Below are positions 19,171 to 61,109 of a stretch of 64,000 nt of DNA, in pieces (the first letter of the stretch is position 1; each line of letters starts with the position of its first letter). A model generated the notes under the pieces. That model made no database searches and was not told the DNA's origin. It was given only the letters and a program-made list of their open reading frames with translations. The translations under genes and the position numbers were made by a program. The stretch covers positions 42,467-106,466 of the forward strand of contig JALQPE010001824.1 in assembly GCA_030407315.1 (NCBI GenBank). The letters run 5' to 3'. This DNA comes from Asparagopsis taxiformis (lineage: Eukaryota; Rhodophyta; Florideophyceae; Bonnemaisoniales; Bonnemaisoniaceae).

Positions 19171-19443
19171 AACGCAAGCACACTACGAAACTGAGTACCA
19201 CTGGTCGCCCACCCTCTCATACCCCGATCATACCCAACAAAACAGTTCACGAGAAACACATTTCACAACCTTCAAAGACAATCACGTCCATAGGCAAGAA
19301 AATTCACAAAATTTCCACTTCCCCGAAGTCAAAAATATCCACCAAGCCAAGACCGCGCATCAAATCCGACCTCCCTTCCACAATTCGGGACTACCACGCA
19401 TGGCATTTGAAACTGAATCACATTCACCCGCAAAAGATCCATT
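19171..19443 (+). pseudogene. Copia-2 pol piece up to the TE-A insertion
   Basis: Open in the frame +1 to the Gag ORF. Ends with a gag-pre-integrase zinc motif half (H...H). The codon interrupted at 19440 is completed at 33325 after the transposon: removing TE-A and one copy of CATT restores an uninterrupted frame into M-A-K-H-K-L-V-P-H-M-P. Confidence 0.8.
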
Positions 19444-19490
19444 AACACTGATTTCGATATGAACAGAACGTACTTTCGAAACCAGAATCC
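19444..19490 (+). repeat. TE-A left terminal inverted repeat
   Basis: 47 bp matching the reverse complement of 33278-33324 at 45 positions. Confidence 0.9.
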
Positions 19491-19820
19491 GAAAATTTTT
19501 CGATGTTGATTGACTAATTATAAGTTGATTGAATTGTGGCCAATGAGATGAAGATGTTGACTGACTGGGTGGCATTGCGCTGACAGTTTCAAGTATAGTA
19601 CTGCCGTGCTCAATACGATCGCTAGACAGCCTGTCACAGCACTGTTCATTTCTGCCTTCAAGTCTGGCTGCAACCGTATTGGTAGTTTCCAATATGACCT
19701 GATCATATCAAAATTGGTAGTAGATGAAAATATCAGAATTTATTTTATAAAAACTTATATGTGCACCGTGTTTCTACTCACTATACTTATGCGCCGTGCA
19801 GACTCTCGCAAACTTGCCAA
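19491..19820 (+). repeat. Cargo-side subterminal region of TE-A
   Basis: Homologous to 49612-49968 (TE-B) and, inverted, to 63406-63760 (TE-C). Two copies of the 9-mer GTTGATTGA lie just inside the inverted repeat and may be transposase binding sites. No ORF is conserved across the three copies. Confidence 0.8.
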
Positions 19821-20048
19821 GAAGCCCTGAGAAGTGGCTACTAGTCGTACTTCACCCATTAAGGGCGAATGTGCCCGCCATATTTGTACGCAGATAGGTA
19901 GTCAAATCAGCCTCGTCCAACGCAACCAACCCGCATTCACCAGCCGCATTTCCATACTGGCACACAGCATCAGTACGTTGTTAGCCGTTGAGATCCCTCA
20001 TAGAAAACTGCTCCTACACGTACAATTGAATGGCGTCATCGAGAAAAA

Positions 20049-20592
20049 TTAACGCAGTCGCGTGCAGTAGATCGCATCATCGCCGCGAACTTTCCAGTCC
20101 TCGAATACATCGTTCACCAACTTTTCCTCATCCTCCATCTCGCATGGACCAATATGACTTCCTTTTCGACACTGCGCACAGATCGCTAACAAGCAATACG
20201 CGCATCTTACAATATGCGCATCTTCCCAGCCCATCTTCGACAAACGCCGCCATCCTGGACGAATCCTAGAACATTGAAAAGCGAGGCAACGTTAGGGAAG
20301 AAGTATTCGTGAAATCGCCACCACACCAGACATTCTTCCTGTCCAGCTCGTTGAATACTCTTCTTGAATGTGCGAAACTTTCCCAGTTGTCTTGCCAACG
20401 TAAATGATATGCTTCCAGAACATGAACTGCATCCGCATTACCCTCGCCATCGTCTTTTCGAACTTGCAACTCCTTCAGATATTCATTGAGATCTTCTGGA
20501 GTGGTCTGAACAGCACCCGACTCCTCCAGGGACTCTAGACGATTGCATACCGACAGAGCCAAGTTCACAGTGCGCATCACTGCGTCGGACAC
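20049..20592 (-). pseudogene. TE-A cargo: fragment with a RING/IBR-like cysteine cluster
   Basis: Two open stretches in different frames. The 3' part (20049-20243) encodes C-A-Y-C-x5-C-x2-C-x4-H-x3-C, resembling the IBR or second RING-type zinc site of RBR ubiquitin ligases such as RNF14. The 5' part (20266-20592) encodes about 100 residues of helical protein I do not recognise. Frame change and lack of a start and end indicate a captured, decayed piece. The ligase assignment is weak. Confidence 0.45.
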
Positions 20593-20599
20593 TGTTTCC

Positions 20600-21760
20600 C
20601 ATCCAGTGAAATATATCGCTTCCCGAATGCTTTTCCGTCATGCAGTCTGTGCCCTTGATACAGCGTCACAATCTCTGTCGCGTATTCAAATCCCTCCGCT
20701 GGCGCTTCCGGTTGATAAGAATCCGTCTACGACAATGTTCCCATATCTTGTGATACAACCGCTCCGATTGGATTCATATTAGAATAACCAGTCTGCTGCG
20801 ATTGTGCCGCTTCTAACGGCCTGATTTGTTATGCTTCCTCGCCCGTGGGGAATCCGTATGTCGGCATCGGCTGCACGGCAGCAGTCATTGTCGGCTGCTG
20901 ATGCATATATATTGGTTGCGCATCAGGTTGGCGTTCTGGCGTTTGGAAATGTCGCTGAAACGGCTGTGCGGTTTGTATTGCGGAATGATGCACAGGCGCG
21001 TGCTGAACACCAGGGTGGTAGGCATTGATGGGATGCGTTGGATACTACGTGTTGGGAGGATATGATGGTGCTTGTGCCTGCAAAGGCATCAGTGATGCTG
21101 AGTACAGAGCGGAGTCTATATCATTTTGAGATCCTTGAGCGCGCGTTTTGTTAACGACGAATGCGAAACCGATGAGGACCACTGCGATAAGTGCTGCGCC
21201 TCCCGCTGCGGCGCCGATGATTAAGGGTGTGTTCGTGCCAGAATTGTCCACGACCCTGTTGGTGATTGAGGAGAATACTGCGTTAGTTGATCTCCCAACG
21301 AAGCGAGCAAAGAGGATTCAGACAGCACTGCTCAGAGCATTCATGCACGCTCTCAGTGCACATCACAACACCTTTCGATAACGATATTCAGTTCCTTTTC
21401 TAATTCAGCATCCCAATCTTCTTGAACTTCTTCTCCGACGTCACCGACATTATAGGTGAATCCAGATGTGGATGCTCCGGTTACCTTCTGTACAATTTCT
21501 GATTCATCTCCGTCATTCTGAAGAATATTCTGTGATATATCATCATATTGCTGACGCAGATCTGCCGCTATTTCCTTGATTCTCGAGCGAACATTTTCCG
21601 CTGCGTTGTTGGCATCTTCATACCCAAAAGATGAAGCTACGAGACTAGTCAAACTCGCAATATCCGCTGCTGCTGCAAAGCATTTCATTTCTCCGAGGCT
21701 CATAACAGTTGTCCACATCGCGAGAACAAAACGACGCGGGGAGAACAAGCAATAACGCAT
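20600..21760 (-). pseudogene. TE-A cargo: remnant of a single-pass membrane protein
   Basis: On the minus strand: an extracellular-looking segment (21353-21760), a break, then a 24-residue hydrophobic helix (LIIGAAAGGAALIAVVLIGF) at about 21160-21235. A Pro/Gln/Tyr-rich tail follows in the same frame to about 20600, with three in-frame stops (after the P-P-N-T and G-E-E-A motifs and further on). The layout is ectodomain, membrane anchor, cytoplasmic tail. Family unknown. Confidence 0.5.
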
Positions 21761-21915
21761 GCGTGCACGTATTCAGCTCCAAGCGTAGTTTCCTCGGACC
21801 GCGGGGGAGCAATCAATCCTATCATTCAGGTAATACTTTCCACAATGTATTCTGAAGAGTACTGAACTGCAGTATCCCAATCTTCGTAGTCGTACAGGAT
21901 TCCAGCCAACACATA

Positions 21916-22174
21916 CCCTATAAGAAAATGAATATGTACCCAGGATATACCTCAGATGAACCTATGATGTACGTGATATCTCTACTGTGCGCAAGAGATA
22001 CTTCGGTGATGTCCGAAAGATGAGCGTAAAGACATCTCAGGTCTATCTTTGGTGTATCGCTATGCGGCCATCAGCTGAAGAGCGATTGTTCCTTATCGGT
22101 ACATCAGAGAAACACCATGTATGTCATATGTTCATCATACGGCCATCATTGGTACATCTTCGAGTCTTACTGGG
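21916..22174 (+). repeat. 259-bp dispersed repeat, copy 1
   Basis: Over 90% identical by eye to 33792-34050 inside insert D, with sharp ends (CCCTATAAG ... TTACTGGG) at both sites. It lies between two cargo fragments. A 60-codon frame is open in both copies, but the differences change amino acids freely, so coding is unlikely. Confidence 0.8.
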
Positions 22175-22189
22175 ATATTTGCATCGTAG

Positions 22190-23889
22190 CTGCTACCGAA
22201 GTCCTCGCTGTTGGGGTGCTACCAAATCATCCGGATCCTCTTGACGGTGCGAAAGTTCTGCTCCGTGAGCCATTTCTCTCGTTAAAGCAAGCCTCGCTTC
22301 GACAACTGCACCTAAGCCCTTTGTCAAAATTGCGTTCTCACATTCCAGTTCACTTGCCAGAGCTAGAACAAGAGCCGTGTCATGGAAACTGCCAAGTGCC
22401 TTTAACGCTTCGTGGATTAAGCGAAGAGCTTCCCGTAAATTCCCAGTATCTTTGTAGGTCTTGGAAATCCGAAGCAGAATACGAGCCTGTTCGGATTGGC
22501 ATCTGTTTAGCGTTGCCCACTCAAGCTAGCTTGAGTGGGAGCTTCCTTAGTAGAATGTCACCAGAGAGATCTTCGTTTTCCTTCGCCAGACCACTGACGT
22601 CGCTATTATCCGGGAGATAATATTTACTTCTTGTTCTCTCATCAAGTGCTATTGTACCAACACTGTCTCTTACCAATGCATCAAAGTGTCGCTTGATCGT
22701 TGTGTCGTAGCGTGCGAATAGTTCTTTCACTCGAGAACAACTTGGATGGACAACAGATGCTTGATATCCAATTCCAGGGAACTTAAGTAATGATGCATGA
22801 GTAAGACTTGGTGTCTGAAAAGCAGATTGTGGAACCATCTCCTTTGAGCATAATCTCCTCAGTAGTTGGATCAAACACATTGTGGCTTCCACTTATTGCT
22901 GGATCAGAATCTCTTCCGTCAATAGAAAACATTCCAGCATCGGCTCTGTTACTTTCCTTTTCCGGAAACCAGGATAGGAAACTTACAGATCCATCATCAA
23001 CAGCTCTACTCTCACTAGAATCACCAGGAGGAGAATGGCCCTGTTCCAAGACAAAATCATCCGCCCAATCGTCTGTTTCTGCAGCAGGATCTGCATACAC
23101 GCCAATGACATTACTCACACGAGGAAGATCTGATGCACCTAATTTGGCGTGCTGGTCCAACTCTTCGTCAAATGCAGTGAGAGTAATTGTATCGCGTGGA
23201 CCGTGATCTCTAACACTGTTTGACGAGGTTGCTTTCTGCGGTGGTGATCTGCGATCGTGAAGACGACTTATAGATCCGCTTCGGGTAGCGGCAGTTCCCT
23301 TCGCTGGAAACTTGGTTGGTGCGATTTCAGAGTCATCAGACAGTTCATCCTAGCCCCAATCGTCCACAGAGTCATCTGTTGTAATTGATGTACGTGTTGG
23401 AATGCGCGAAGAAAGAGCTAGTGTGGAAAGAGTTTGGATGGTAGAAGTGTCTGGCAGATGGGTAGAAGGTGGAGGAATAGTTGGGCTCGCACTTGAAGCA
23501 TTACGAAGACGCAAGGGCTGACGAGGAGTGGGGAGAGGATCGGGTAAGCGAATGCGAGGACTGTCATTGAGATTAAGTGTGTCTGTCGACGATACTTGAG
23601 CAGATAATAGTGGTGGTCGAGGCGGAAGGGCAGGAGTGGCTGTTGCAGAGGTGCGACGAGTGGTGGCTTGAGCAACAAGACGAATATCGGAAGACGTTGA
23701 CTCCTGAGAACTGCGCTCGGAAAAATTTCTGGGAAGCTGGCGATGTGTTTTAGCTGTGTGCACTGGAGGAAATGACGAAGATGAGGGCACTGTTGGCGAA
23801 TTATGCGCTTCCGAGAGGCGAATTCGAGCGCCACCTTTGGTTACGACATCTGAAGTATGGTTGATCAGACAAAGGCTGAGGAAAGCCAT
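22190..23889 (-). pseudogene. TE-A cargo: large fragment of a TPR-like protein
   Basis: Starts MAFLSLCLIN at 23889 with a Ser/Pro-rich N-terminal 175 residues ending S-V-D-D-W-G, then a stop at 23350. The frame continues (D-E-L-S-D-D-S-E) to a second acidic motif T-D-D-W-A-D-D-F near 23070. After two frame changes it ends in helical repeats of TPR type (I-S-K-T-Y-K-D-T-G-N-L-R-E-A-L). Paired D-D-W motifs occur in some septation and cytokinesis regulators, but I cannot name this protein. Several breaks make it a pseudogene. Confidence 0.5.
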
Positions 23890-24139
23890 GCGAATGGGCG
23901 GTAGAATTTGGTGGTGTTAGTTGTGGTCGTTGCTGGTGATGCCATTATAAAAAATTCGCCAGAACAATTGTTTCCGCTTGAGTAGAATTGATTTCGCCCA
24001 AGTTGGCGACGGAAACTTGCGGTGAACAGGCGGGGAAGAATGCACGGAATACGCAGAGAGCACTTACGACGCGCGAAAACCTGAGAAATGTGTGACTATC
24101 ACTCATGGAAGACGTTGAGGGCGGAAGGGAACACATTGC

Positions 24140-25028
24140 AGAGGGAGGATGTGCGAGGCGGGAGGGAGAGGGAATAATTTCATGGCCTTGATGGGTCATG
24201 CATGTACGGCTTACAGAACATGTGCATCTGGCAGTTAAATGGCCGGCGTGCTTCCAGTAGAAAGCCGCCGGCCGCGGGTACAAATTTGATCACATGTCAC
24301 AATTCAAAATTGTGACTCAAAATTTTGTACCGGCCTGTTGTGCTTCAATTTCAAGCACACCCCTCTGTGACATGTTGTACCTCCCGCCAACAAGTAGCAG
24401 TGTTTCTTTTGCATACTTTGAGCATAATGTGCACAATGTGCACAATGATTGTGTACATGTGTGTACTCGAGACGCCATGGCGTGGATGTCTTGGCGGTGC
24501 TCATTGTAATTCACGCACAACAGTGCGTGCATGCCGACGCGGACATCAGCACACGACGGAGCATGTGATACGTCCATGCATGGACTGCATCACACACTGA
24601 ACGTGCAAATAGGATCTTATAGCAGTCCATGCCTGGAGCATATGACTGTAAAGGGGTATAGGAGTGGGGAGCATGTATGACACGGATGGTTGTACACATA
24701 AGTGTGTGGCGTTCGAGAATCAATAAGTGGAGCAGTGTATGGTCGTCGGCACTTTGCAATACGGCGTGTATGATTGTACAGGGGTATAGGAGCGTGGAGC
24801 ATGCATAGCATGGATGGATTTACACATATGTTTGCATGAGTCTGTGGCGTGCATGGATTGCACGGAAGGGTGTACAAATAAGTGTGCATGTCTGTGTGGC
24901 GGCAGTGAAGCAATCAGTGCAACAGTGCATGCACGTCACAGCACTTTGCAATATGAATTATTATGAATGAGTGAGTGGCATTAAAGAGATTCTGAACGAC
25001 ATACATTTATGTGAACGGTCTTACCAAC
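24140..25028. other. TE-A backbone between cargo and accessory gene
   Basis: About 24150-24510 is homologous, inverted, to 59150-59480 of TE-C, including a G/C-rich CCGGCCGCGGGTAC block at 24270 and the GTGCACAATGATTGTG palindrome family near 24440. The rest is rich in short imperfect repeats of the type GCATGCATGGATTG. No coding frame is supported. Confidence 0.7.
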
Positions 25029-26111
25029 TTATTTAAACGATGGCAACTGCTCTCGTACTCGATCACAGGTTGCACCATCTAACTTTCCGTCCACTAGCGA
25101 GTCAAACGTTGTAATCACCGAAGTAAGCGCAATTGTGTCAATCCAGGGTGTAGGAGTGCCGAGCACAAAGCACGGTTTGTACCTACTCCGGTAGGAGTCA
25201 GCGTCCGTTTTGGTGTACCAATGAACCATCAATTTTGCGATACGGTTTCCCTTGCGCGTAATTCTATGTGTTCTCGCCACCCAGAACGGCTCCTCATCCG
25301 TACACTGATCCCCTTTGACCACCAGAAACAACTTCTTTCCCGATTGTGTAGCACTCAGAAGACTCGGCGGCGCCGTTTCTTCGTGAATCGAAAGCGTCTC
25401 CGAATTTTCGGACTGTTGCACGATGGGCTTTTCAGTAGCTTTGGAGGGTTGAAACTGCTGCTCAGCACGCGATACTTCATTTTTGTCCGTAGGCTCAGCA
25501 CGCGACACTTCATTTTTGTCCGTAGGAGATTGCGGCTGTGTTTGCGTCGCTAGATGTTTGTCCATATCAGATTTCTGTGCACTGAACGTGTCAATGTGCG
25601 AATTTTTCGGCGCGGATTGATGCGCTTTGTCTGCCGGCAAGCGTACTCGATGGTGCGGAGATGGAGAGCGGAGTCGCATACAGCGCTCACAACGTTCACA
25701 CTCTCCCCCCTTTTTTTTCTCGATCGCCAGTTGCGCAGCTTTTTTCAGTGGTTTTTTGTTTGACCACTGCATCTCGCGGGAGAAGCCGAATACCTGCGTT
25801 AAGAATTGATAGCAGACGGCACTCCCGCGATATGCGTACATTTCCGACACCGGCTCATATAACGATACTAAGTAGCGCTGTCGTCTCGTACGGTCATACT
25901 CAACGACTCGAAATGAGTCCCTTACTAGATCTTCGCTGGCAGCAATTTCGAAGCAGCGCCGGGAACAGCATTGTACCTTGTGCAATTCTCCATCTTCGAA
26001 CTTTTTCGCTATGATTTTTGCCCTGTTCAGATTTCTCTTCCTGATAGAGGACACCTGTCCTTTCATCGCGAAAGACAGTCGGTCTATTTTAGATCCTGAT
26101 GATTCGGTCAT
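25029..26111 (-). CDS. Accessory protein: transposase N- and C-terminal domains without the catalytic core
   Basis: 360 aa. Residues 45-130 (C-C-S-R-R-C-F ... Y-L-V-S-L-Y-E-P ... V-C-Y-Q-F-L ... F-G-F-S-R-E-M-Q) align with the cysteine-bearing N-terminal domain of the transposase at 30800-33175. Residues about 265-345 (E-E-P-F-W-V ... V-H-W-Y ... Y-K-P-C-F-V) align with its C-terminal Tudor-like domain. The linker is low complexity, with a tandem T-D-K-N-E-V-S-R-A-E, and no DDE core is present. A TATA box lies about 60 nt upstream, and the gene is divergent from the methyltransferase. It recurs in TE-C, so it is a stable component. A regulator or repressor of transposition is plausible (inference). 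Confidence 0.82.
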   Translation of the reverse strand: MTESSGSKIDRLSFAMKGQVSSIRKRNLNRAKIIAKKFEDGELHKVQCCSRRCFEIAASEDLVRDSFRVVEYDRTRRQRYLVSLYEPVSEMYAYRGSAVCYQFLTQVFGFSREMQWSNKKPLKKAAQLAIEKKKGGECERCERCMRLRSPSPHHRVRLPADKAHQSAPKNSHIDTFSAQKSDMDKHLATQTQPQSPTDKNEVSRAEPTDKNEVSRAEQQFQPSKATEKPIVQQSENSETLSIHEETAPPSLLSATQSGKKLFLVVKGDQCTDEEPFWVARTHRITRKGNRIAKLMVHWYTKTDADSYRSRYKPCFVLGTPTPWIDTIALTSVITTFDSLVDGKLDGATCDRVREQLPSFK

Positions 26112-26167
26112 TGTTGATGGAGGTGGTATGGGGCGAAAGTGTCGGGGACTTGCAGCACATGTCCTGC

Positions 26168-26175
26168 TTTATACC
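26168..26175 (-). promoter_or_regulatory. TATA box of the TE-A accessory gene
   Basis: GTATAAAG on the minus strand about 60 nt upstream of the ATG at 26111, comparable with the CTATAAATA box before the TE-C copy. Confidence 0.65.
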
Positions 26176-26179
26176 AGAA

Positions 26180-27273
26180 CGGGAACCAGCTTCTAATCAG
26201 TTATAAACGTTCAGGATGTAAATATGTCACAAATGAGCGCTTTCTGTACTTTTCGGAACGAGATGTATTCTTGAATTATGAGCCTTGAATCCATCGATCT
26301 CATTGGACGCCCGGAACTCTCTTGAATTGAAGGATTCCAGCGTGCCAGTCGTAGTTCAACCAGCAATGACTGTGGAAAGACATGTTATCTGTCTGATCTC
26401 TAATCCGAATACTCTTGGTGGGAACGATTCATTATCTGCTCCCGTTATTATTCCACATGTTCGTAGAACAATATTCTGTTCATTGAATGGAGTCATAATG
26501 TAAATGTTCTACCATTTATATGTATCAAGGTGCATGCTATTGCACCTGAACCTTGTAAACACCATTTTAGTTGTACAAAAATCGAATCAAGCTTCTGTAG
26601 TTTGAGAACAGTACAACGTACTACTTTTCGGCAGGCCTGCTTTGTGCACCGTTCAAGCAATAATAATGTTCTTTCGGTCTGAGTTTCTATTTCTAATATG
26701 CATTGTTTATCGTCTAAGTTGCAGTGGGTAGGAATGTACTCTAAGGTGTAATGTAGGATGTGGAATGTATTAAGGGATGAAAGAAACCTGGTAGCTGCGC
26801 TGTTTACTGAAAAATGGCATTGCAATGGGGAAATGAGAATGGGTTTTCGGTGTGCAAGATACTCAGACCTGTTCGGTAATATTGGTATCGGAGGGGAAGG
26901 TGGCGAAACCTGTTCAGACATTCCTGCTATTAGCAGCGAAAAGATGATGTGTACGGCCCATTTCCTGTATAGGAAATAGTCCTGGTGAGATGGGCCATTC
27001 CTGGGAAATATGAAAAAAAATATGCCAAGTGTTGTGAGCAACATAGCAAATCAGATGGCCAAATCATTCCATCATCTGGATGGACACGGCCCGGCGCAAT
27101 ATAATTTTTAGAATACCCCGCTACTTATATTTCTGACTGGTAATCATTGGGAGAGTGCTTGCGTCTCCTATCCACTTCAATTGTCTTCCGAGCAATGGTA
27201 ACCACGATACTCGGGCCACCACCGCCGTCGTAATCCGGTTTGAGCCGTGTCGTGTCCTGCATGGCCAAGATGC
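26180..27273. other. TE-A divergent intergenic region
   Basis: About 1.1 kb between the accessory gene and the methyltransferase. Only short overlapping frames are present and no conserved ORF relative to TE-C is seen. Confidence 0.5.
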
Positions 27274-27377
27274 TTCACCATGCATAGTACACTGGCTCAA
27301 AACCGAAATGACCGTTCACATTGGATCCAATGTGAACGGTCATTTCGGGTCTGGGCCAGTGTACTATGCATGGTGAA
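27274..27377. repeat. 104-bp near-perfect palindrome
   Basis: Two 52-bp arms meet at GGATCC (centre 27325/27326) with three mismatches. It lies about 145 bp upstream of the methyltransferase start. I did not see it at the equivalent place in TE-C, so it may be a small foldback insertion or a regulatory cruciform. Confidence 0.85.
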
Positions 27378-27520
27378 AGTACACTGTACTTGAGTATGGC
27401 GTTCATGACAATCATTTCAAGTCCTTCATGCGAAAGTGCGAGAAATTGATACAGAGTTTTATAGCTTCTGTTTCCCCTTCATTTCTTACCCGGCACTTCA
27501 TTATTTCAGAACTGGATGAC

Positions 27521-30460
27521 ATGACGAGATTCTTCAAGAGGAGTGGGTCCAGACTCAGTTCCAAATCAGGTCCTCCAGAAGAGGAACCGGGTACTTCCAC
27601 CATGAAGCACACTAATACCGCCTTATTTGCAGACGTCATGGAAGGGTCTACGAACACACGTGTTGATCCGCGGGCATGCATCCCACTCACTGCTGTTCGA
27701 CAAGTAGTGCGCTCTGGTGTGTTGCGATTGAAGTCGATATTTTCTGGAAACATAAAGTCAGCACAATGTCGAGAACAAGATGAAACAAACGGAATTGATG
27801 GATTCATTTCGGGCTCCGACAATGCGATCGTAGTCGAGTTGACCGGGTCGTTCCAGCGCCACATTATTGACTTTTTCAAAACGATACGCGGTCCTCAGGG
27901 TGATTTTCTTTCTGACAGTGAGGCGAAAGAGAAGTCCGAATGCCGTTCCGTTTGGTACGGAGTTGTTGACGGTATGCACAGACTGACTGCAATCCAGGAG
28001 TTAATGGATGAGAACCCGGAGAGGTGGGACTCTTTTATGTGGCCTGTCACGATACTGAAAGGAGGTCATTCTATCCAAGTTCTGAAACAACTAGGCAGAC
28101 ATCAGAACCGTAAGCATGATGCAACATTATATGTCGAAACCACGTTCTATGATATCCTGAGCGGAATGAAAGAAGAAGCCCACCGGATGCAGAGCATGAC
28201 CTCAAAGCCACCTACAGCCAAACAAGTTGCTGCCGCATATGATGGTTGCTCCCACCTCAAGGATAACACCGTGAGACAGACTGCTGCGACGGCATTGCGC
28301 CTTCCTGTGCGAGTGATCGAAGAGATTGGAACAATTATGAATTCGGAGCATCCAGACTTGGCAGAACCTCCTTCTAGCAACAGTATGGCATTGAAAACTC
28401 GGAGAAAGGGTACTAATACCCCAATGACAAGCGTTGACTGTCGCGTGTATCGCAAATTTGTGAATTTAACATCTTTGAAATCTGCAACCAAGTTCATGAA
28501 TGCTTCGGGTACTGATGCTGAAGAAGTTCAAGTTCATACTCTTTACAGGCTTCGGGGAATCTCCAGATTGAATAAATTCAAACCAGTATCATACAAAGAT
28601 ACCCTCCAGCAATACGAATACACATGCGCAGCGATGAAAGAAGCGCGTAAGTTCGAGGTTCTTCATGAAGGACAGGTATGGCCAAAGGGCATGGAATCAA
28701 TCAAGCAGAATCTACTTCGCTCATCAAAGTTCGATACTGATGTTATGGAGAACATGGGAAACGATTATAATATTCTGGATGCTCTTTTGAAGCAGTACCG
28801 GAAAGTTTGCCCTCAAATTGCTCCCATGAAGGAAAAGAAGTATCGGGAAAGCCATCGAAAAGACCCAGATCCCGATTCTTTCTGTCAGGAAATTGGCAAG
28901 ACGGCAGCCGATAACGAAAATGCAGATACAAGGGACGCGAAAGAAGAGAAACAAAAAGATGTCTCGAAGGAAGATAGTGTTCCTCAACTAGGCTCCGAAA
29001 TATGTGATGAGGATATAGTCTCGGTACCGAAGATGAGCCAGATAACGCAAGAATCTGTACAAGATGAAGTTGACGCTTCCGAAAAGGTTATCACCGGACC
29101 GAAAACTTCTATTCCAGTGGACCGAATGATAACAGAGAACGATGTCTCTGCTTCACCTAGTATCAACTCAGACCGCCTCAACCTTCATTCTAAACGCGGT
29201 TCATCTGGTACGAATGAGCCAGAAAGAAAAGACTACGTTCTTGAAATGGGAATTACATGCTATCAGATGAAATGGCAGGACTTCGACAAGGAAATATGGA
29301 CAGATGAGTACCCTCTTCAGGATTTAGTTCTTACCGACCCTCCGTATGGAACTCCGAATTCTAAATCCCTTCGTAATACCGCATATAACAATTTCATAAG
29401 TGATAAGGAAATCAATGCATTATGCCAGTTTGCAAGGAGAGCCTTGAAGCCAGGTGGCTGGTTTTTCTGTTTTGTATCATTCCGAAACTTTCCAGCATTC
29501 CTGCATGAGCTGAGAAACGTCGGTTTCGACGGTCCGGAATACCCTTTCGTATTCATGAAAGACACGAACACTGTACAAGCACATCGCGGAGATATGTTCC
29601 CACAAAACGCGTGCGAGTTTGCAGTTGTTGCCAGGGCTCCCGGACATCGTAAGGACGGTTTCAAGCCAGACCTTCGAAGCCAATATCACCTCGTCCCAAC
29701 AGAAACGAAACGGAAATTCGCTGCAATGTCCAGAATTCCCGTTTCGAAAGAAAAACTTCTCACTCCAGGAACAAAATCTCCTGTTCTAACAGAAGAGAAA
29801 CATATTGGAATGTTATCCGAGATAATCAACACGTTTTGTCCTGAGAGGGGTTCAGTTATTGATGTTTACGGAGGAACACTTACTACTGCGATCGCAGCGA
29901 TGAAGACAGCCCGTTCATGTGTGGTTGTGGAAGCTAGTACCAAGATTTTCCGTCTCGCTCATGAAAGACTTCGTTCTATTGCCGATGCTTTGTATCATAA
30001 TGATCTGAGATCACGTATCGGATCGAAGAAAAGGAGAACAGGGAATCATGCAGAGGATGGCGTTCTGCTAAGCCAACCGAAAATCTGTTCGCTACAGAAA
30101 AAGGGAAAAGATGATAATACAAATGCCGGTAAATCCACTATCGAAGGAATAGAGAGAGTACTGAAAGGAGGAGATTCTGTTGAACTATACATTTTGGATC
30201 AGGTCGTCGGAAAAGCGTCTCTCCTTTGTGCAGGAACTAGTGATGAGAGGTTCCAAACTACAATACACAATGTACCTCTAGCGAACTTTCAAGGTGAGGA
30301 TCAGAAACTTGTATCTTGTTATATGTTCGAACCGAACGAATGTTGTTTGGATTGTCCTTACCCGTACAAATACGGTGGTATTGAACCTCCTCCTGGAACT
30401 TTGAAAGGGCTGAACGGGATATTCGCATGGGACTTGAACAAGATGAGGCCGTTGTCTTAG
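27521..30460 (+). CDS. ParB-like domain fused to DPPY-type DNA methyltransferase
   Basis: 980 aa from the ATG that aligns with the TE-C copy; the frame also offers an ATG at 27428. The N-terminal third is ParB/sulfiredoxin-like (D-P-R-A-C-I-P-L near 49; V-V-D-G-M-H-R-L-T near 148, the G-x-H-R signature). An acidic, charged linker follows at about 440-560. The methyltransferase domain has catalytic D606-P-P-Y and later the cofactor-binding D781-V-Y-G-G-T, the order (motif IV before I) of beta-class N6-adenine/N4-cytosine amino-methyltransferases. Such fusions are typical of bacteria and phages, which suggests transfer. It is co-oriented with the transposase, 339 bp upstream of it. A likely role is methylating transposon DNA or ends. 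Confidence 0.85.
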   Translation: MTRFFKRSGSRLSSKSGPPEEEPGTSTMKHTNTALFADVMEGSTNTRVDPRACIPLTAVRQVVRSGVLRLKSIFSGNIKSAQCREQDETNGIDGFISGSDNAIVVELTGSFQRHIIDFFKTIRGPQGDFLSDSEAKEKSECRSVWYGVVDGMHRLTAIQELMDENPERWDSFMWPVTILKGGHSIQVLKQLGRHQNRKHDATLYVETTFYDILSGMKEEAHRMQSMTSKPPTAKQVAAAYDGCSHLKDNTVRQTAATALRLPVRVIEEIGTIMNSEHPDLAEPPSSNSMALKTRRKGTNTPMTSVDCRVYRKFVNLTSLKSATKFMNASGTDAEEVQVHTLYRLRGISRLNKFKPVSYKDTLQQYEYTCAAMKEARKFEVLHEGQVWPKGMESIKQNLLRSSKFDTDVMENMGNDYNILDALLKQYRKVCPQIAPMKEKKYRESHRKDPDPDSFCQEIGKTAADNENADTRDAKEEKQKDVSKEDSVPQLGSEICDEDIVSVPKMSQITQESVQDEVDASEKVITGPKTSIPVDRMITENDVSASPSINSDRLNLHSKRGSSGTNEPERKDYVLEMGITCYQMKWQDFDKEIWTDEYPLQDLVLTDPPYGTPNSKSLRNTAYNNFISDKEINALCQFARRALKPGGWFFCFVSFRNFPAFLHELRNVGFDGPEYPFVFMKDTNTVQAHRGDMFPQNACEFAVVARAPGHRKDGFKPDLRSQYHLVPTETKRKFAAMSRIPVSKEKLLTPGTKSPVLTEEKHIGMLSEIINTFCPERGSVIDVYGGTLTTAIAAMKTARSCVVVEASTKIFRLAHERLRSIADALYHNDLRSRIGSKKRRTGNHAEDGVLLSQPKICSLQKKGKDDNTNAGKSTIEGIERVLKGGDSVELYILDQVVGKASLLCAGTSDERFQTTIHNVPLANFQGEDQKLVSCYMFEPNECCLDCPYPYKYGGIEPPPGTLKGLNGIFAWDLNKMRPLS

Positions 30461-30799
30461 TCTTATTACGTATAGTTTCGCTCGGCCTTCAGAGAGGAAA
30501 GATTGTTGTCATTTTTCCCCGTAATCATGGGCGCATGAAGAGCACAAATCAACCAATCAGCCGTACTCCATTCACAACAGAGATTGATTTGACATAGGTA
30601 TTTGGCGCTGTATCCTGGGCCAACTATCGCCGTCGAGGAGGCCACTCTGCATCCATATTAGATGAACGTCTCACCGGTGTCATTCCTACTCACCATGCAT
30701 CTTGATCAACCGATATACTCGTCTTGCAGCCATCTCTTTTCCACGCTACCTGCAAATCTAACTACCGTTCAGAGATCATTCGTTCTGCTCCCACAGCAG

Positions 30800-33175
30800 A
30801 TGGCTCCGCGTTTTCATCTCGCCGAAGCTAGGAATGACGCACTGGAGAAAGCCGAATCATACATGAAATCTCTTTCTAGGGACTCCGAATCAGAACACGC
30901 TCCTTCTGTTGAAACCATATCTATGCCGCGTAGCCACGATGAAGTGATGCATGGAATAGTGGGTACTTCTTCCGACTCTTTCCGATCCACGGCTTCGATG
31001 TATAAACCATTTTCACGACTACAACACAGGAAGAATTATGAAAGTGTGACGAGGTCCAGTTCAGTTCGTCGAAAGAGCAGCATGCTAGAGAGGCGGGTGA
31101 AGTTCAGTTTGTCACTGCCCAAAACAGATATAAGAAGAATACCATGCTGCAATAAGGGATGCTTCAGAAAAACCGACCATGTTTTCCTTCGGAATGAAGC
31201 AGAACGAGTTTTGTTGTACAACAGGGACGATCGCCGCAGGTATCTGCACGCTCTACTGGAACCAAACAGTAACCGGTTCTACTTCTCTGGGAAGCCTGTG
31301 TGTTGCGAATTCCTAGAGTTCAGCTTCAAGTTTTCACGACACCTGCAGACCTCGGTAAAGAAAGCTTGCCAGAATGGGAGTCTTCCATTTATGGCTTCTC
31401 CGAAACGAATTTCTGGCTCTCCACATAGAGATGCAGTGATCTGCTTCCTTGAACGCTTGTCTGCCTCGACTGCTGATATGATGCCAGACAGTGGAGAGAA
31501 GCATCTGCCTCTTTTCGAGAAGAAGGCTGTGTACGAGATGTTCTGCGACCAATTTACGTTATTATACTCGAACCGGAACCCACCAACTTTGAGCTACTTC
31601 TACAACACCTGGAACACGTTTTGCGCGAATATCAAGGTTCGGCGTGTCCAGAGGTTCACGAAATGTTCGGAATGTGAGTACATACGTGATAAACTGGAAG
31701 CCATCGGGACAGATATTCAACGCACTGCTCCGCTTCTGGAACGTCGCCAGCGTCATATCGAGATGGTGGCACGGGAACGCAGGGAGTATCAAAAGAAGTG
31801 TGAAGAAGCGTCACTATATCCCTCCAGGTTCACGTCTCTGATCGTAGACGGGGCTGATCAATCAGGATACGGTCTTCCCCATTTCACGGTATGTACAAAA
31901 GCGACTGTTGGTCATAGTTTGAAGGTGAGACTCATAGGTGTTCTCGAACATGGTGTCCGAAAGCATCTTTCGTTGTACACACTTACTGCTGAATTCGAAA
32001 CTGGGGCAAATCATATCATCGAGGCAATTCACAGGACTCTTACCAAAAAGGCTATGGGTTCGAGTCTTCAGGGAACACTGTACTTGCAGGTAGACAATTG
32101 CACGAGAGAGAACAAGAACACGTTTCTGTTTTGCTATCTAGAATGTCTCGTTGCTTGGGGTGTGTTTGAAGAAGTACACTCTTCTTTCCTACCCATCGGC
32201 CACACACATGCAGACATCGACCAGGCCTTTAGCTGTACCTCTCGCAGGCTACGTTCCCACAACGCCGTCACTATGGAAGATTTAGTTGAACAACTCAGAG
32301 TTTCCTATACTCCGGAACCCTCTGTCTCTCGTATGTTGCACGTGGCAAACTTCTCCGGTCTCTGCCGGAGTGAGAATTCGGTTGGAAAAGTGCATGCTTT
32401 CTCAAAATTCAGATACTTCAGGTTTCACCGATCCCAAGATACAGGAAAAAGTTATGACTTCTACAGAACTGCATGCGATGTTAAGATATTTTGTGAAGAC
32501 AACTGGAAGCCTCTCCCAGTTCTCACTCAGGGGCTGAATGGTTTCCTGGTTAAGCCTCCTGAACTGAAACGAACACCGAGTAATATCATACGTTCTCCTC
32601 CAGATCGACATGAAGTCCTGCTCCGTTTTCGTTCGGAAGAGAGCAGGGTCAATAACAATTCTAAAATGGATCAGCTACATGAGCTTCTACGACAGGTTTA
32701 TGAGGAAAGGGAAGATTCTTTTCATTGGAACCTCACCGAATGTTTCGAGATGAATGGCATGTATCGAAAAGGGAATCGGAACGTCGTCCCGATGGAGGAG
32801 GAACTCATGTCGACTGCAGATTGCATACCACTATCAGACTTGCCCTACTCGGTGAATCGCTTCGTGGCTGTAAATGGAGAAGACTGTACTACTGAGATGC
32901 CGTTCTGGCTAGGACAAATTATGAGTTGTAAGAAAAACAACGAAGGGGTTATTTGTCAGCTGTGTGTTCGGTGGTACGAGGTCTACGATGGAAGAGACGC
33001 ATGGTCAGGTAAGTATAGGCCTGCCATGCTTCGCAAGGGGAGAACAACAGTGGCTTGGAAGGGACATATTTCGGTTGACACCGTCATTGCAGAGTTCCCT
33101 TCACTAACAAACAAGATGATAAGAGCTGGGGTAGAGAAAGAGATCAGGTCAGGCCTGGCGTCTATTCCGAAGTAA
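30800..33175 (+). CDS. DDE-like transposase (DUF7869-like core)
   Basis: 791 aa from this ATG, chosen by alignment to TE-C; the frame is open back to an ATG at 30662. The N-terminal 100 residues are Ser/Arg-rich. A cysteine-bearing domain follows (C116-C117-x3-C121), then a C-x2-C pair (T-K-C-S-E-C). The core is RNase-H-like with D350 (I-V-D-G-A-D), D432 (Q-V-D-N-C-T-R-E-N-K-N) and D472/D474 (G-H-T-H-A-D-I-D). The C-terminus is Tudor-like (M-P-F-W-L-G ... V-R-W-Y ... Y-R-P-A). The core pattern is that of the DUF7869 family as I remember it; calling it the transposase rests on its presence in both inverted-repeat elements. Confidence 0.8.
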   Translation: MAPRFHLAEARNDALEKAESYMKSLSRDSESEHAPSVETISMPRSHDEVMHGIVGTSSDSFRSTASMYKPFSRLQHRKNYESVTRSSSVRRKSSMLERRVKFSLSLPKTDIRRIPCCNKGCFRKTDHVFLRNEAERVLLYNRDDRRRYLHALLEPNSNRFYFSGKPVCCEFLEFSFKFSRHLQTSVKKACQNGSLPFMASPKRISGSPHRDAVICFLERLSASTADMMPDSGEKHLPLFEKKAVYEMFCDQFTLLYSNRNPPTLSYFYNTWNTFCANIKVRRVQRFTKCSECEYIRDKLEAIGTDIQRTAPLLERRQRHIEMVARERREYQKKCEEASLYPSRFTSLIVDGADQSGYGLPHFTVCTKATVGHSLKVRLIGVLEHGVRKHLSLYTLTAEFETGANHIIEAIHRTLTKKAMGSSLQGTLYLQVDNCTRENKNTFLFCYLECLVAWGVFEEVHSSFLPIGHTHADIDQAFSCTSRRLRSHNAVTMEDLVEQLRVSYTPEPSVSRMLHVANFSGLCRSENSVGKVHAFSKFRYFRFHRSQDTGKSYDFYRTACDVKIFCEDNWKPLPVLTQGLNGFLVKPPELKRTPSNIIRSPPDRHEVLLRFRSEESRVNNNSKMDQLHELLRQVYEEREDSFHWNLTECFEMNGMYRKGNRNVVPMEEELMSTADCIPLSDLPYSVNRFVAVNGEDCTTEMPFWLGQIMSCKKNNEGVICQLCVRWYEVYDGRDAWSGKYRPAMLRKGRTTVAWKGHISVDTVIAEFPSLTNKMIRAGVEKEIRSGLASIPK

Positions 33176-33277
33176 AAACGCCTCGTCTTCGACGACACGA
33201 GTAGTTCAATCAACTTTGTTATCCTATTCAATCAATATGAAAAAACATCTCTCATGTTCAATCAACTTCAGAAAGTT

Positions 33278-33324
33278 GGATTCTGGTTTGGAAAGTACGT
33301 TCTGTTCATAGCGAAATCAGTGTT
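33278..33324 (-). repeat. TE-A right terminal inverted repeat
   Basis: Inverted match to 19444-19490. Inside it, about 33180-33277 carries three TTGATTGA-type 9-mers, spaced differently from the left end. Confidence 0.9.
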
Positions 33325-33762
33325 CATTACATGGCAAAACACAAACTGGTACCACATATGCCTCGCTCACTCTTACGCTCCCCTCCTCGCGACTTCTCCT
33401 GCTCAGGCTGCGCAAAAGGCAAAACCCATGCAGCTCCTTTCCGGCGACGCAACCGTTCCTACTCGATCGGCAGCCACCTGCACACTGACGTGTGCGGCCC
33501 TTTTCCGGAAACCTCCCTCACCAACAATCGCTTCTTCATCACATTCCTCGATGAAGGAAGTCGCTTCCTGACCCTCCGATGCATGCCAACCAAATCCATG
33601 ACCGCGACACATCTAACACAACACATCAACGACACCACGGCTCACACGCCATATCGCATCAAGCACATCACATCCGACAATGCCCTTGAGTATTACTCGC
33701 ATGAACTCCAACAATTCTACAGAACACACAATATAAACACACACCCAACCGTTCCGCACACA
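33325..33762 (+). pseudogene. Copia-2 integrase, N-terminal piece
   Basis: Begins with the duplicated CATT and continues the pol frame: the C-S-G-C half of the HHCC zinc site (C-S-G-C-A-K-G-K), then the integrase core with L-H-T-D-V-C-G and I-T-S-D-N-A as first and second catalytic Asp. Cut at 33762 by insert D within H-T-P-Q-E-N, which is completed at 34707. Confidence 0.82.
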
Positions 33763-49564: not shown

Positions 49565-49968
49565 AACACTAATTTGCATATGAACAGAATGTACTTCCGG
49601 AAACAGAATCTGAAAATTTTTCGATGTTGATTGACTAATCGTAAGTTGATTGAATTGTGGCCAATGAGATGAACATATTGACTGATTGGCTGGAATTGCG
49701 CTGACAGCTCCAAGTTCATCACTGCCCAACCCAATTTGTTTGTCTTACAACCAGTCGCAGCTTGGTTCGTTTACAATCCTCTGACAGCCTGTCGACAATC
49801 TGCTCGCTTCTGCCTTGAAAGTCGCGTTTCAACCGTATTGGTAGTTTCCAAAACAATCTGACCATACTAGAGTTCTTATTTGATAACATTATCTGTATTT
49901 ATTTTATAAAAAACTATATGTGCACCGTGGTTCTATTGTTAATATTTGCTCGCCGTGTTAGTGCAGCA
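49565..49968 (+). mobile_element. TE-B: cargo-side end of a third transposon
   Basis: Starts AACACTAATTTGC and is homologous to the left end of TE-A and the right end of TE-C over about 400 bp, including GTTGATTGA motifs and the GTGCACCGTG block. It interrupts the ParB-like ORF. The other end of TE-B lies beyond the window, because TE-C (50482-63806) is inserted in TE-B cargo. Confidence 0.8.
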
Positions 49969-50228
49969 GCATGAAAGCGATCCATTTCATGTCTGCCGAT
50001 GCATTGCACCCATGCGCATAGGGAGATAAATGAATAGTTTAACTGGAACATGCGAGTGCATATCCCTTGTCTAAACGCACAGGATCCGTATGGCGCGCTT
50101 GGTGGGTTTGTCGAAATATAGTTGCCTGATAAGACAACCTGCTAGAGTAGACGAAACATATTTGTAGTACAAAATGACTACCGTCATTCCAAGGTCGCAT
50201 TCAATACATCACGACGAGTCTGTGTTGC

Positions 50229-50481
50229 TCATACTGGCCGAGGAACTTGATCGCTTTGTATCCCAATATCTCCACGTAGCCTTGGTATGAGCCATTCTAA
50301 TAAATCCTTCCTGAAACCGGAGTTCAGGTTATCGAAAGGCAGATGACAGTATGGAATAAGGGGTGCAAGACCGACTGTGTCGAACCAGCTATCCAGGCAT
50401 TTCATCGCAGACTCTCTCACACTCTTCTTGATGTCTACACATCCCTGCCCGAGAACAGCCGGTACTACTGTTTTCACATGT
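50229..50481 (-). pseudogene. TE-B cargo: XMAP215/MOR1 (TOG-domain) fragment, 3' part
   Basis: Encodes about 84 residues of HEAT repeat: K-K-S-V-R-E-S-A-M-K-C-L-D-S-W ... G-L-A-P-L-I-P-Y ... G-F-R-K-D-L-L-E-W-L-I-P-R-L, typical of the TOG domains of XMAP215/CKAP5/MOR1 microtubule polymerases. The upstream part continues on the far side of TE-C at 63812-64000. A captured fragment with no start. Confidence 0.65.
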
Positions 50482-50737
50482 AACACTGGTTTTTGTCTGT
50501 ACAGAACGTACTTTCGAAATCAGAATCGGTTTTTTTCATAATGATTGAATAGGTGATATGACAAGTGTCATATTGATTGAAGCTATGTCAAGTTGATTGA
50601 ATTTTATTTTGTCTTAGTGGTTACCTCAGCATTGATGCTAGCCCAGCTCGGATTTCTTTTTCTACTCCTACTCTAATTCTTTTGTTCGTGAGTGACGCGA
50701 ATTCAGCAATGACGGTGTCGACTGAAATAGTACTCTC

Positions 50738-53120
50738 CTATGGTACCGCCCTATTACGCTTTCGTATCACTGCAGGGCGATACTTCCCGGTCCATACATT
50801 CCCCTTATCGTAGACCTCGTACCACCGAACTGATAATCTTTTGATAACCCCTTCACCGTTTTCCTCACAAGCTTTTATCTGCCCCAACCAAAACGGCATA
50901 TCGGTTGTACAACCTTCTCCGTTTACGGATACAAAGCGATTTACAGAATAAGGGAGGTCAGTCAACGGAGCCGAACATGTGTTCGAAATTTCGTCCTCCT
51001 CATGTAGAACCAATCTATTCGAAACTTGATTGCGGTACACTCCGTTCAGCTCGAAGCAGTCATGTAGGTTCCAGTGAAAAGGGTCATCCCTATTCGAATA
51101 TACCTGTTCAATCAATGCATGTAATTGCATCATCTTTGACGTACTATTAACTCTGGTTTCCTCTGCTCGAAGTCTTAACATGACTTCGTCTCGATCCGGC
51201 GGACTTTTCAACACTGTGGGAGGAACTACTTTGAGATCCGGTGGTACCAATGTGAAGCCCTTTAGACCCAGTGTGATTGTTGGGAGGGGCTCCCATTCAT
51301 CGTCGCAGGAGAGCTTGACGTTGCATGCCGTGTTGTACCAGCCAGTACGACGATCCGAACTTTCAGAGCGGAAAAACTTGAAGTACCTGTACTTTGAAAA
51401 TGCATGCACCTTTCCAATCGAATTTTCGTTCGTGCAAAGGCCAGAGAAATTTGCGACGTGATTCATACGACAAACAGATGGCTCCGGTGTGTAAGAAAGC
51501 CGTAGCTCCCCAATTAGATCGTCCATGGTAGCTGCATTATAGCAATGCAACCTCCGCGAGGTGCAACTGAACGCTTGGTCAATATCAGCATGAGTGTGCC
51601 CAATTGGTAGGAACGAAACTTGAACTTCAAGGAAAACACCCCATGCGACAAGGCACTCCAGATAGCAGAACAGAAACCTATTCTTGTTCTCTCTTGTGCA
51701 ATTATCAACTTGCACGAATAGTGTCCCTTGCAGTTTTGATCCCATAGCTTTCCTTGTAAGAGTCCTGTGTAGCGCCTCAATTATGTGGTTAGCGCCGGAT
51801 TCGAACTCAGCAGTCATCGTGTAGAGCGAAAGGTGCTTCTGAACTCCATGCTCGAGAACGCCTATTAATTTCACTTTCAAGCTATGGCCCACGGTTGCTT
51901 TCGTATTGACAATGAAATGAGGTAGGCCGTAGCTGGACTGGTCAGCCCCGTCGACAATCAATGATGTGAATCTTGTGGAAATAGCGCCGCCTGCTCACAC
52001 TTCTTCTGGTACTCCCTTCGCTCCCGTGATACCATTTCAATATGCAGTTTACGGCGCTCAAGAAGTGGTGCAGTGCGAGAAGAATCAGTTCCGATCCTTT
52101 CCAGATGATCCCGTAGGTATTCACACTCTGAACATTTCATAAATCTGTGGATTCTCCTGACCTTGATATGACTGCAGTACTTTTTCCAAGTTGTGTAAAA
52201 GTAACTTAAAGTGGGAAATGCCTTTCCGGGATAAAGAACGTCGTACTGATCACAAAACATTTCGTATACAGGTCTCTTCTGAAAGAGAGGTAGGTGTTTC
52301 TCTGCTCTGTCTGGCATATCATCGGCAGTAGAAGATGCTAAACGGTCGAGGAAACAGATGATTGCATCCCTCTGTGGTGAAGCAGCATCTCTTCTCGCAC
52401 CTTTGAACAAGACTGAGGTTCCTTCTTCAGCAGATTTTTTAACTGAGCTCTGGAGATGTCGCGAAAACTTGAAGGAATACTCGAGGAAGCGATAACAAAC
52501 GGGCCTTCCTGAGAAATAGTACACTTTCTTGTTGGCCTGTAGCATGCTCAGTAAATATTTCCGCCGTTCTTCCCTGTTCCATAGAAGGACTCTTCCTGCT
52601 TCGTGGCGCAAGAATACGATATCGGTTTTCCAGAAGCACCTCTTCTCACAACACGTTTTTTTGCGAATGTCCATAGCTAAGAGAGAGTTGATGAATTTTT
52701 TTTCTTCTGCCGCATTGTACTCATCGTAGATTGAGACGGAACAGCTGCTATGTGATCAGAAGTAGCGCATTCTCCATTTCGAAGTCTAGAAAATGACCTC
52801 TTCAGTTTTGTTACAGGCTTGGAGATGGGCGAGGTTGAAATGTTATTTGTTTCGTTACCAAAATCGGAACTCTCCTCGGAGTGACTGTGTGCAGTGTTAT
52901 TCTGCGTGCCGTTGCCGGGACAAGAACCAGGTCTCGAGGGAACAGCGTTGTACCATGAGGTGCTTCCTGTGCTTTGATACTCGATGAAAGGAGTACCACA
53001 TGGAGATGTATCGCTCACGTGACGAGAAGATAACGAGCGCAACATATGTTCTTCACTCGACTGCTCTTCACTCGACTGCAATTGGGAACGGAATTGAAGT
53101 GGCGGCCGAAAGTGATTCAT
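50738..53120 (-). pseudogene. TE-C transposase, broken
   Basis: Three open pieces (52677-53120 in a frame open to 53213; 51958-52674; 50738-51961). Breaks fall at an A8 run near 52690 and at about 51960, just before the first catalytic motif. Each looks like a one-base loss relative to TE-A. All core motifs survive: I-V-D-G-A-D-Q, Q-V-D-N-C-T-R-E-N-K-N, G-H-T-H-A-D-I-D. The N-terminal 130 residues have diverged strongly from TE-A whereas the core is highly similar. Confidence 0.82.
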
Positions 53121-53387
53121 GGTGGGGAAACGATCAGATTTGTTTCGGTGACTGCGGAGTGGCTTTGATGGAAGCTTGAGGTAATAGAAATGGAAACAAA
53201 TGGATTTCTGCAAAATGACTCAGTGGACTTCAGCTCGATTTCTCATGATACTAACGGGCAGCGAAGGTCAGTATCCGCCGCCGGAACCAAATAATGAAAT
53301 CTGGTTCCTCTAATCCGGATTAACTAGCACCAATGGATCATGAAAAATGATTTGTCATTGACAAAGTGTCTGGATATCGATGGAATA

Positions 53388-56347: not shown

Positions 56348-56349
56348 TG

Positions 56350-57605: not shown

Positions 57606-57610
57606 GAAGT

Positions 57611-57619
57611 CTATAAATA
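57611..57619 (+). promoter_or_regulatory. TATA box of the TE-C accessory gene
   Basis: CTATAAATA about 55 nt upstream of the ATG at 57673. Confidence 0.7.
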
Positions 57620-57672
57620 TAGTGTTCTGCGTTCATACTTGGATTCTGTTTCACTTCACTATCCTATCAACC

Positions 57673-58694: not shown

Positions 58695-58789
58695 TCTCAC
58701 CGTAAAAGAGTTTTCCAAAGTTTTGCAAAGTTACTTTGCAACACTCATTGTCAGCCTGTCTTTCGTGAGCTCACGGAGGCGCCGGAAGA

Positions 58790-59655: not shown

Positions 59656-59659
59656 CATG

Positions 59660-60679: not shown

Positions 60680-60680
<1 letters not shown>
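60046..60680. other. TE-C cargo spacer, unassigned
   Basis: No coding homology recognised. Short overlapping frames only. Confidence 0.4.
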
Positions 60681-61075
<395 letters not shown>

Positions 61076-61109
61076 ACGCCACAGCACCCACCCGCCCCGG
61101 TTGTTGTTT

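Follow-up and report, generated by a model that had tools for sequence, protein, structure and literature searches.

A DNA transposon family of the red alga Asparagopsis taxiformis with a prokaryote-type amino-methyltransferase beside a DUF7869 protein

The window analysed here, a stretch of 64,000 nucleotides of Asparagopsis taxiformis DNA that is part of contig C1701 (assembly of 141.5 Mb in 3156 contigs), contains a mobile element, TE-A, with three genes: one for a DUF7869 protein, one for a DNA methyltransferase, and an accessory gene (Table 1). Thirteen matches to the phycobilisome-linker family (PF00427; 14 candidates, all scored) in the assembly agree with a red-algal origin. A preliminary description of this DNA had named these three genes, and all were found in place. 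The ends given there, i.e., a length of 13,881 bp, 47-bp terminal inverted repeats (TIRs; 45 of 47 positions identical) and a CATT target-site duplication, proved exact. The proposed insertion into a Copia gene was also borne out: when TE-A and one CATT are excised in silico, the flanks form one open Copia pre-integrase-like frame. Because joining the flanks restores this frame, we consider the insertion and its ends secure. The methyltransferase had been given 980 amino acids (aa); the gene is there, and it encodes 1010 aa from its first ATG, the shorter length fitting a later start. The recurrence of the same three genes in a related element of the window, TE-C, was confirmed as well, each of them being split there into two frames.

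The DUF7869 protein is probably the transposase and would act by cut-and-paste. Its AlphaFold2 model, built from 66 sequences, has a confident core (mean predicted local distance difference test [pLDDT] of 81, 536 residues at 90 or above), where D396 ends the first strand, D478 ends a later strand, and D518/D520 stand at the next helix. These residues are invariant across the 66 sequences, and their order in the model is the one expected of an RNase H-like DDE/D transposase. A Pfam scan of the protein returned DUF7869 only, and its profile gave a single, meaningless match (E 0.6) among the sequences of solved structures. Scans of IMG/VR with the transposase and with the methyltransferase confirmed no relative of either, and DUF7869 is not mentioned in the open-access papers searched. 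The preliminary description was right that there is an accessory protein and understated what it is, since it matches the transposase at both ends and is a paralogue without the catalytic core, in TE-A and TE-C alike. BLASTP aligns it to a Cys-rich module within transposase aa 133-240 (3e-14) and to the C-terminal domain, aa 734-834 (2e-11), which consists of beta strands in the model. The transposase profile covers it at positions 88-197 and 661-791 of 794, with nothing between, and the TE-C gene shows the same pattern (88-189 and 655-788). Between TE-A and TE-C this gene evolves faster than the other two (proportion of nonsynonymous differences, pN, 0.40-0.49). A database search (E <= 1e-3, 2090 candidates) retrieved two relatives, one identical to the TE-A protein and another, P0133 (409 aa), of which a part is identical to the TE-C protein at 217 of 220 positions (99%).

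The methyltransferase carries a PF01555 (N6_N4_Mtase) match over aa 632-845. Its DPPY motif (aa 637) precedes the S-adenosylmethionine (SAM)-motif region (VIDVYGGT, aa ~810-817), which is the beta-class order, with a target-recognition stretch in between; we take these to be motif IV and motif I, respectively. The nearest solved chains are 5hek (DpnA; 1.2e-12), presumably M1.HpyAVI, and more weakly 6pbd (CcrM; 6.4e-4). Judging from its sequence, the enzyme would target adenine-N6 or cytosine-N4. DPPY is kept in TE-A, in TE-C and in all eight further readable loci of this protein type in the genome (L026 is unreadable there). Relatives elsewhere are distant: GTDB yielded a weak one, of the methyltransferase domain only (24% identity), and 71 phage records are distantly related to that domain (25-26% identity in the 15 listed). 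The N-terminal part (aa 67 to ~480) is well conserved, with many invariant columns, and contains DGMHRLTAI and QNxKH, which we take to be ParB-like motifs. A ParB-like domain followed by helices would fit these motifs and the predicted order of strands and helices.

The family is abundant. The TIR tip, searched with up to 2 mismatches, occurs at 268 places in the genome (140 on one strand and 128 on the other), whereas the reversed tip, used as a control, occurs at none. Among the first 100 places (contigs up to C1934) there are 13 facing pairs less than 30 kb apart, and in 11 of them, one being TE-A, a listed copy of this methyltransferase lies between the tips rather than the unrelated backbones that the preliminary description had considered; ten of the 11 span 13.5-15.9 kb and one spans 24.9 kb. 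Of the other two pairs, the one on C533 (16.2 kb) has nothing listed between its tips, and the one on C712 (26.6 kb) has a listed accessory gene. Around the best 40 of 177 methyltransferase candidates, all listed at 100% over the 701-bp query, the transposase lies 2.3-4.5 kb downstream in 27, the right end 3.5-4.5 kb downstream in 25, and the accessory gene 3.5-11 kb upstream in 26. At least one of these partners, on the same strand and in the expected order, accompanies 34 of the 40 copies, and six have none listed; these neighbour counts rest on lists of the best 40 or best 150 places. Conversely, 27 of the best 40 of 246 transposase candidates (99-100% identity) have a listed methyltransferase and 13 are without one among the matches listed. 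Of the best 40 of 280 right-end matches, 28 lie no more than 12 kb from a listed hit to the methyltransferase or to DUF7869, and 12 do not. Since some contigs look like duplicates (C2543 shows the same insertion as TE-A, its flank agreeing over the 15 bp displayed, and neighbours in number, for example C2664/C2665, resemble each other), copy numbers may be inflated and do not equal numbers of loci. The near-identity of the methyltransferase and transposase copies implies a recent burst. In five copies checked the TIRs are identical at 42-45 of 47 positions, and three have perfect 4-bp duplications: CATT (TE-A), ATAG (C504), and GGTT (C2332). By its TIRs, its 4-bp duplications and its copies at many sites, TE-A most likely belongs to the DDE cut-and-paste transposons.

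The methyltransferase and the transposase also share a long history. A PF01555 profile scan of the genome (150 of 2605 first-look candidates scored, all above the cut-off) provided 20 loci, hand-picked for reading; a protein of the TE-A type is encoded at nine of them (L023, L024 and probably L025 being one family). Pairwise distances of the methyltransferases correlate with those of the transposases at r=0.97 for nine pairs and r=0.93 for eight (reached in 0 of 20,000 permutations). Two pairs of the larger test were less securely matched and were left out of a repeat with the six pairs that are physically linked in the genome, which gave r=0.90; of the 720 permutations the identity alone reached this value. 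This co-divergence reaches down to ~30% identity. Between TE-A and TE-C the proportion of synonymous differences is saturated (0.80-0.85), whereas the methyltransferase has a pN of 0.24-0.26 and the transposase one of 0.19-0.26. The earlier proposal of a methyltransferase as conserved partner of the transposase is upheld by co-divergence, shared constraint and, within the lists examined, expected neighbours. The partnership is old, and over long times the methyltransferase has been maintained like the transposase, which speaks against its being a passenger.

Both ends of the element carry a short motif, TTGATTGA, next to the TIR on its inner side. At each of the seven left tips examined it lies 63 and 82 (+/-1) positions away, and at each of the two right tips examined there are two or three copies at distances of 60 to 112. 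Every one of the 19 copies in these nine ends (400 bp each) points inward. Left and right ends are unlike each other beyond the TIR, yet both carry it. The whole window has 16 copies, where shuffling predicts 5.4 (100 shuffles, maximum 13), and 11 of the 16 are within ~120 bp of five ends.

The left arm, in turn, is exchangeable. Only three of the 40 listed methyltransferase copies (TE-A, its duplicate contig C2543, and C504) are found among the best 40 of 305 left-end matches. The alignment of C2648 to TE-A (97-99%, gapped) sets in only at element position 2217 and continues to the right, and that of C2332 (95-98%) does so only at position 3570. To the left of these points the outer part is 77-86% similar over 125-190 bp and then patchy (67-68%) to ~340; the remaining left part has no match, and Pfam scans of six left-arm frames in the two copies found nothing. 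The TE-A arm includes a 259-bp piece (21916-22174) that matches, at 95%, positions 33792-34050 in the Copia region just right of the element; apart from the weak match noted in Table 1, its frames gave no match on scanning. For the TE-A cargo stretch there are 20 matches (all candidates), located on 12 of the 40 contigs with a methyltransferase copy, among them C1701 and C2543. The PP5 fragment of TE-C has 15 (all candidates), 11 at 99-100% including TE-C, three at 93-94% and one of 50 bp, and some of the contigs concerned carry adjacent numbers and may be duplicates. This exchange would fit elements that use or recombine alternative left ends and capture host sequence. In L006-L008 the left ends are mosaics of a TE-C-type tip (97.8% over 46 bp to the right tip of TE-C) and a TE-A-like left end (94% over 339 bp), a sign of recombination between subfamilies. 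A larger relative on C90, C1919, C1780 and C1667 has a left end 92% similar to that of TE-A and a DUF7869 gene ~15.7 kb away on the same contig; three of these four contigs have a 939-aa frame.

Table 1. Features of TE-A, TE-C and their surroundings (positions in the window)
Feature	Position	Strand	Evidence or remark
TE-A, whole element	19444..33324	+	13,881 bp; TIR 45/47, CATT/CATT flanks, Copia frame open after joining flanks
Left target-site duplication CATT	19440..19443	.	sequence flanking TE-A
Left TIR, 47 bp	19444..19490	+	45/47 identical to right TIR; tip 268 times in genome
Left subterminal motif array, TTGATTGA at 19506 and 19525	19506..19532	+	motif search of ends
TE-A left arm, exchangeable; gene-fragment-like frames and 259-bp Copia-region piece (21916-22174)	20266..23916	-	one weak TPR-like match below cut-off
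Accessory gene, core-less transposase paralogue, 360 aa	25029..26111	-	BLASTP 3e-14, 2e-11 to transposase ends; profile 88-197, 661-791 of 794 only
ParB-like (unproven) plus beta-class amino-methyltransferase, 1010 aa, DPPY at aa 637	27428..30460	+	PF01555 9.1e-12; DpnA/CcrM-type PDB chains; model secondary structure
DUF7869 protein, predicted DDE-type transposase, 837 aa	30662..33175	+	PF25273 2.9e-49; model with D396, D478, D518/D520 in RNase H-like order
Right subterminal motif array, TTGATTGA at 33206, 33228, 33258	33206..33265	-	motif search of ends
Right TIR, 47 bp	33278..33324	-	best 40 of 280 right-end candidates scored
Right target-site duplication CATT	33325..33328	.	sequence flanking TE-A
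Truncated left end of a third related copy beside TE-C	49565..50481	+	402 bp at 87% to TE-C left end; first ~400 bp only matched
TE-C, related element, reverse orientation, 13,325 bp	50482..63806	-	TIR 44/47; same three genes
TE-C transposase, two frames	50738..52755	-	Pfam/profile match
TE-C methyltransferase, two frames	53388..56350	-	Pfam/profile match
TE-C accessory gene (core-less paralogue), two frames	57397..58694	+	profile match; 217/220 to part of P0133
TE-C left arm: Sec1-family gene fragment	59615..60160	+	PF00995 6e-12
TE-C left arm: PP5-type phosphatase gene fragment	61306..61863	+	PF08321 1.3e-11, PF00149 1.1e-12; 15 genome matches

Other methyltransferase families were met in the same scan. 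A second high-copy family, exemplified by L029:2645-6202, encodes a 1186-aa protein with an N6_N4 methyltransferase domain, a C-terminal SET domain (PF00856 4.3e-6) and an N terminus that looks ParB-like by eye. It is also present in L027, L028, L030, L031, L038 and L040 and corresponds to the 78 hits of equal score considered below. Its gene adjoins an 826-aa frame (L027:7522-9999) that has no Pfam hit and whose end we take to be 2-oxoglutarate-oxygenase-like. A third family (compare L037) has a ~1080-aa protein with a weak SET-like match. Window positions 45043-49630 are mostly a 97-98% copy of part of this family, with repeated ~180-bp units, and the frame at 48458-49630 has a C-terminal domain of ~110 aa in common with the TE-A methyltransferase (1.5e-9). 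At the other end of the window, positions 792-1075 hold a tandem pair of similar tRNA genes of 92 and 96 nt, lengths that suggest introns.

We propose that TE-A is a multi-gene transposon of the cut-and-paste kind that was active recently, and that its methyltransferase methylates the DNA of the element, thereby setting when the transposase assembles and cuts or preventing silencing of the ends, a proposal that we hold to be about as probably right as wrong. The DUF7869 protein would cut and paste the element. The core-less paralogue, because it keeps the Cys-rich N-terminal module and the C-terminal beta-barrel, probably binds the same end sites or the partner protein and could be a structural or regulatory subunit, or a brake. 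The ParB-like methyltransferase would recognise DNA of the element itself, with the TTGATTGA arrays as plausible sites, and put adenine-N6 or cytosine-N4 methylation there. The methylation state may then set when the transposase can assemble and cut, or shield the ends from silencing, and alternative left ends, used or recombined, could lead to the exchange of left arms and the pickup of host gene fragments. One may go further and imagine a self-contained epigenetic circuit, where the methyltransferase reads the TTGATTGA arrays, writes N6-methyladenine (6mA) or N4-methylcytosine (4mC) and licenses or blocks synapsis, where the paralogue competes for the ends, and where several high-copy families, encoding ParB-methyltransferase or methyltransferase-SET proteins, between them write most of the amino-methylation of the genome. 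In this full form we find the idea unlikely.

A number of observations weigh against the proposal. Two of the five copies checked, C2648 and TE-C, are without a target-site duplication, and at the TE-C ends (50482/63806) no clear one was found. Among the nine TE-A-type loci read, five have a DUF7869 frame in the same stretch, there divergent rather than tandem, and four have none within the stretch read. The other 11 of the 20 loci are methyltransferase families without DUF7869 in the stretch read. Of the 150 scored PF01555 hits, 78 have one and the same score (65.6 bits) and are, as far as read, a different family, and most of the 150 look like other families when judged by score and span. 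As to whether the methyltransferase occurs outside such elements, a point raised at the outset, 34 of the 40 listed copies keep at least one partner, and the PF01555 domain itself is not confined to the TE-A family. The early claim of a ParB-like fusion fares in the same mixed way: the N6_N4 domain is recognised by PF01555, and the ParB part stays unproven, the N-terminal region having no match in Pfam, no phage match by tblastn and no meaningful match among PDB sequences. The model of this protein is only moderate (mean pLDDT 62). The accessory protein has no relative outside the TE-A/TE-C element group in the database search described above. Between near-identical copies, dN/dS (the nonsynonymous to synonymous ratio) is 0.53 for L033/L034, 0.75 and 1.00 for two parts of L021/L022, and 0.21 for L024/L023, with few changes in each, so that recent constraint seems weaker or variable. 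Finally, the choice of TTGATTGA was made post hoc, and the left ends are mutually homologous; what tells is that left and right ends share it. As to the protein that the array plausibly serves, nothing favours the methyltransferase over the transposase or the paralogue.

The alternatives differ mostly in what the methyltransferase does. It could be a means of counter-defence, protecting excised or newly inserted element DNA from host nucleases or marking the whole element as active chromatin, with no role at the ends. The fusion of a methyltransferase of the same type to SET in the second high-copy family and the weak SET-like match in the third point to chromatin control, transposon-coded anti-silencing proteins exist in Arabidopsis (VANC; PMC5735166, PMC10398659), and 6mA goes with permissive chromatin in other eukaryotes, according to the part of the literature available (PMC12695648). 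The TTGATTGA array at the ends suggests, on the other hand, that one or more of the proteins act specifically at the ends, and we see counter-defence as possible, if on the improbable side. We think it quite improbable that the methyltransferase domain is inactive or dispensable and the protein mainly a ParB-like end-pairing or partition factor. Such a factor would agree with the many invariant columns of the N-terminal part and with the database relatives, of which seven of ten keep DPPY, P0008 (DPSY) and P0010 (EPPA) have it altered, and the truncated P0009 ends before its position, a record that also tells against our own proposal. In TE-A, however, both DPPY and the SAM-motif region (VIDVYGGTLTTAIAA) are intact, and between TE-A and TE-C pN is as low in the methyltransferase half (0.24) as in the N-terminal half (0.26).

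That these elements take up host gene fragments in the left arm makes one ask if the methyltransferase is itself captured cargo without a role. Cargo changes between copies, whereas the methyltransferase stays where it is, has diverged in step with the transposase and shows constraint in the TE-A/TE-C comparison; this explanation is largely refuted and retains very little probability. The apparent duplicate contigs, such as C2543, would suit a stable host gene or an assembly artefact with no transposon at all. We regard this as refuted, with a probability close to nil, by the independent insertions with different flanks and their own duplications and by the number of TIR tips. Transposons are usually targets of DNA methylation; in our reading, this family of eukaryotic DNA transposons has retained a prokaryote-type amino-methyltransferase of its own over deep divergence, beside a transposase that Pfam records only as DUF7869. 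Should the enzyme prove active, TE-A would be a tractable example of an element that determines its epigenetic state itself. It might then also supply 6mA or 4mC to an algal genome and serve as a test case for the licensing of transposition by end methylation. Because the copies are near-identical, recent movement is suggested and such a test is feasible.

Several known systems resemble parts of this proposal. VANDAL elements with VANC and CACTA En/Spm elements with TnpA likewise encode a DNA-binding protein that acts on the element and is connected with DNA methylation, and TnpA binds short repeated motifs near the ends. Neither VANC nor TnpA has a methyltransferase, and both are associated with methylation loss, in which they differ from the TE-A protein. 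Methyltransferases in mobile elements are themselves already known, from viral Mariner elements (PMC3627910) and from retrotransposon DNA methyltransferases (DNMTs; PMC5890265), as far as the accessible parts of these sources go. A literature search outside subscription journals and preprints, judged from the entries listed, showed no amino-methyltransferase in a comparable eukaryotic DNA transposon beyond the viral Mariner elements, which, like TE-A, are DNA transposons with a DNA methyltransferase beside the transposase (PMC3627910, in part). They differ in their transposase superfamily (TA duplications), in their C5 or Methyltransf_26 enzyme, in its pairing with a nuclease and in their location in viruses, and the available part of that paper mentions no long-term co-divergence. 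The dinoflagellate and charophyte retrotransposons have likewise incorporated a DNA methyltransferase, with hundreds of such elements in Symbiodinium according to a section title (PMC5890265). Those enzymes are described as host-derived and are of the C5 (DNMT) type, in contrast to the prokaryote-type amino-methyltransferase of TE-A, a DDE-type DNA transposon. Similar in architecture, in the sections available, are the Sola2 DNA transposons and Fanzor chimeras of Bao and Jurka 2013 (PMC3627910), which share with TE-A the 4-bp duplications, a long transposase (888 aa in Sola2) and families with a near-identical transposase part and a wholly different rest; half-identical, half-different elements are known there for Sola2-Fanzor and MCi-2. 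The Sola2 TIRs are 12-21 bp long and the duplications AT-rich (AWWT or similar), against 47 bp and CATT, ATAG or GGTT in the TE-A family, so that membership in Sola, with which the 4-bp duplications agree, is not claimed. The partner in the Sola2 chimeras is Fanzor1; in TE-A it is the methyltransferase.

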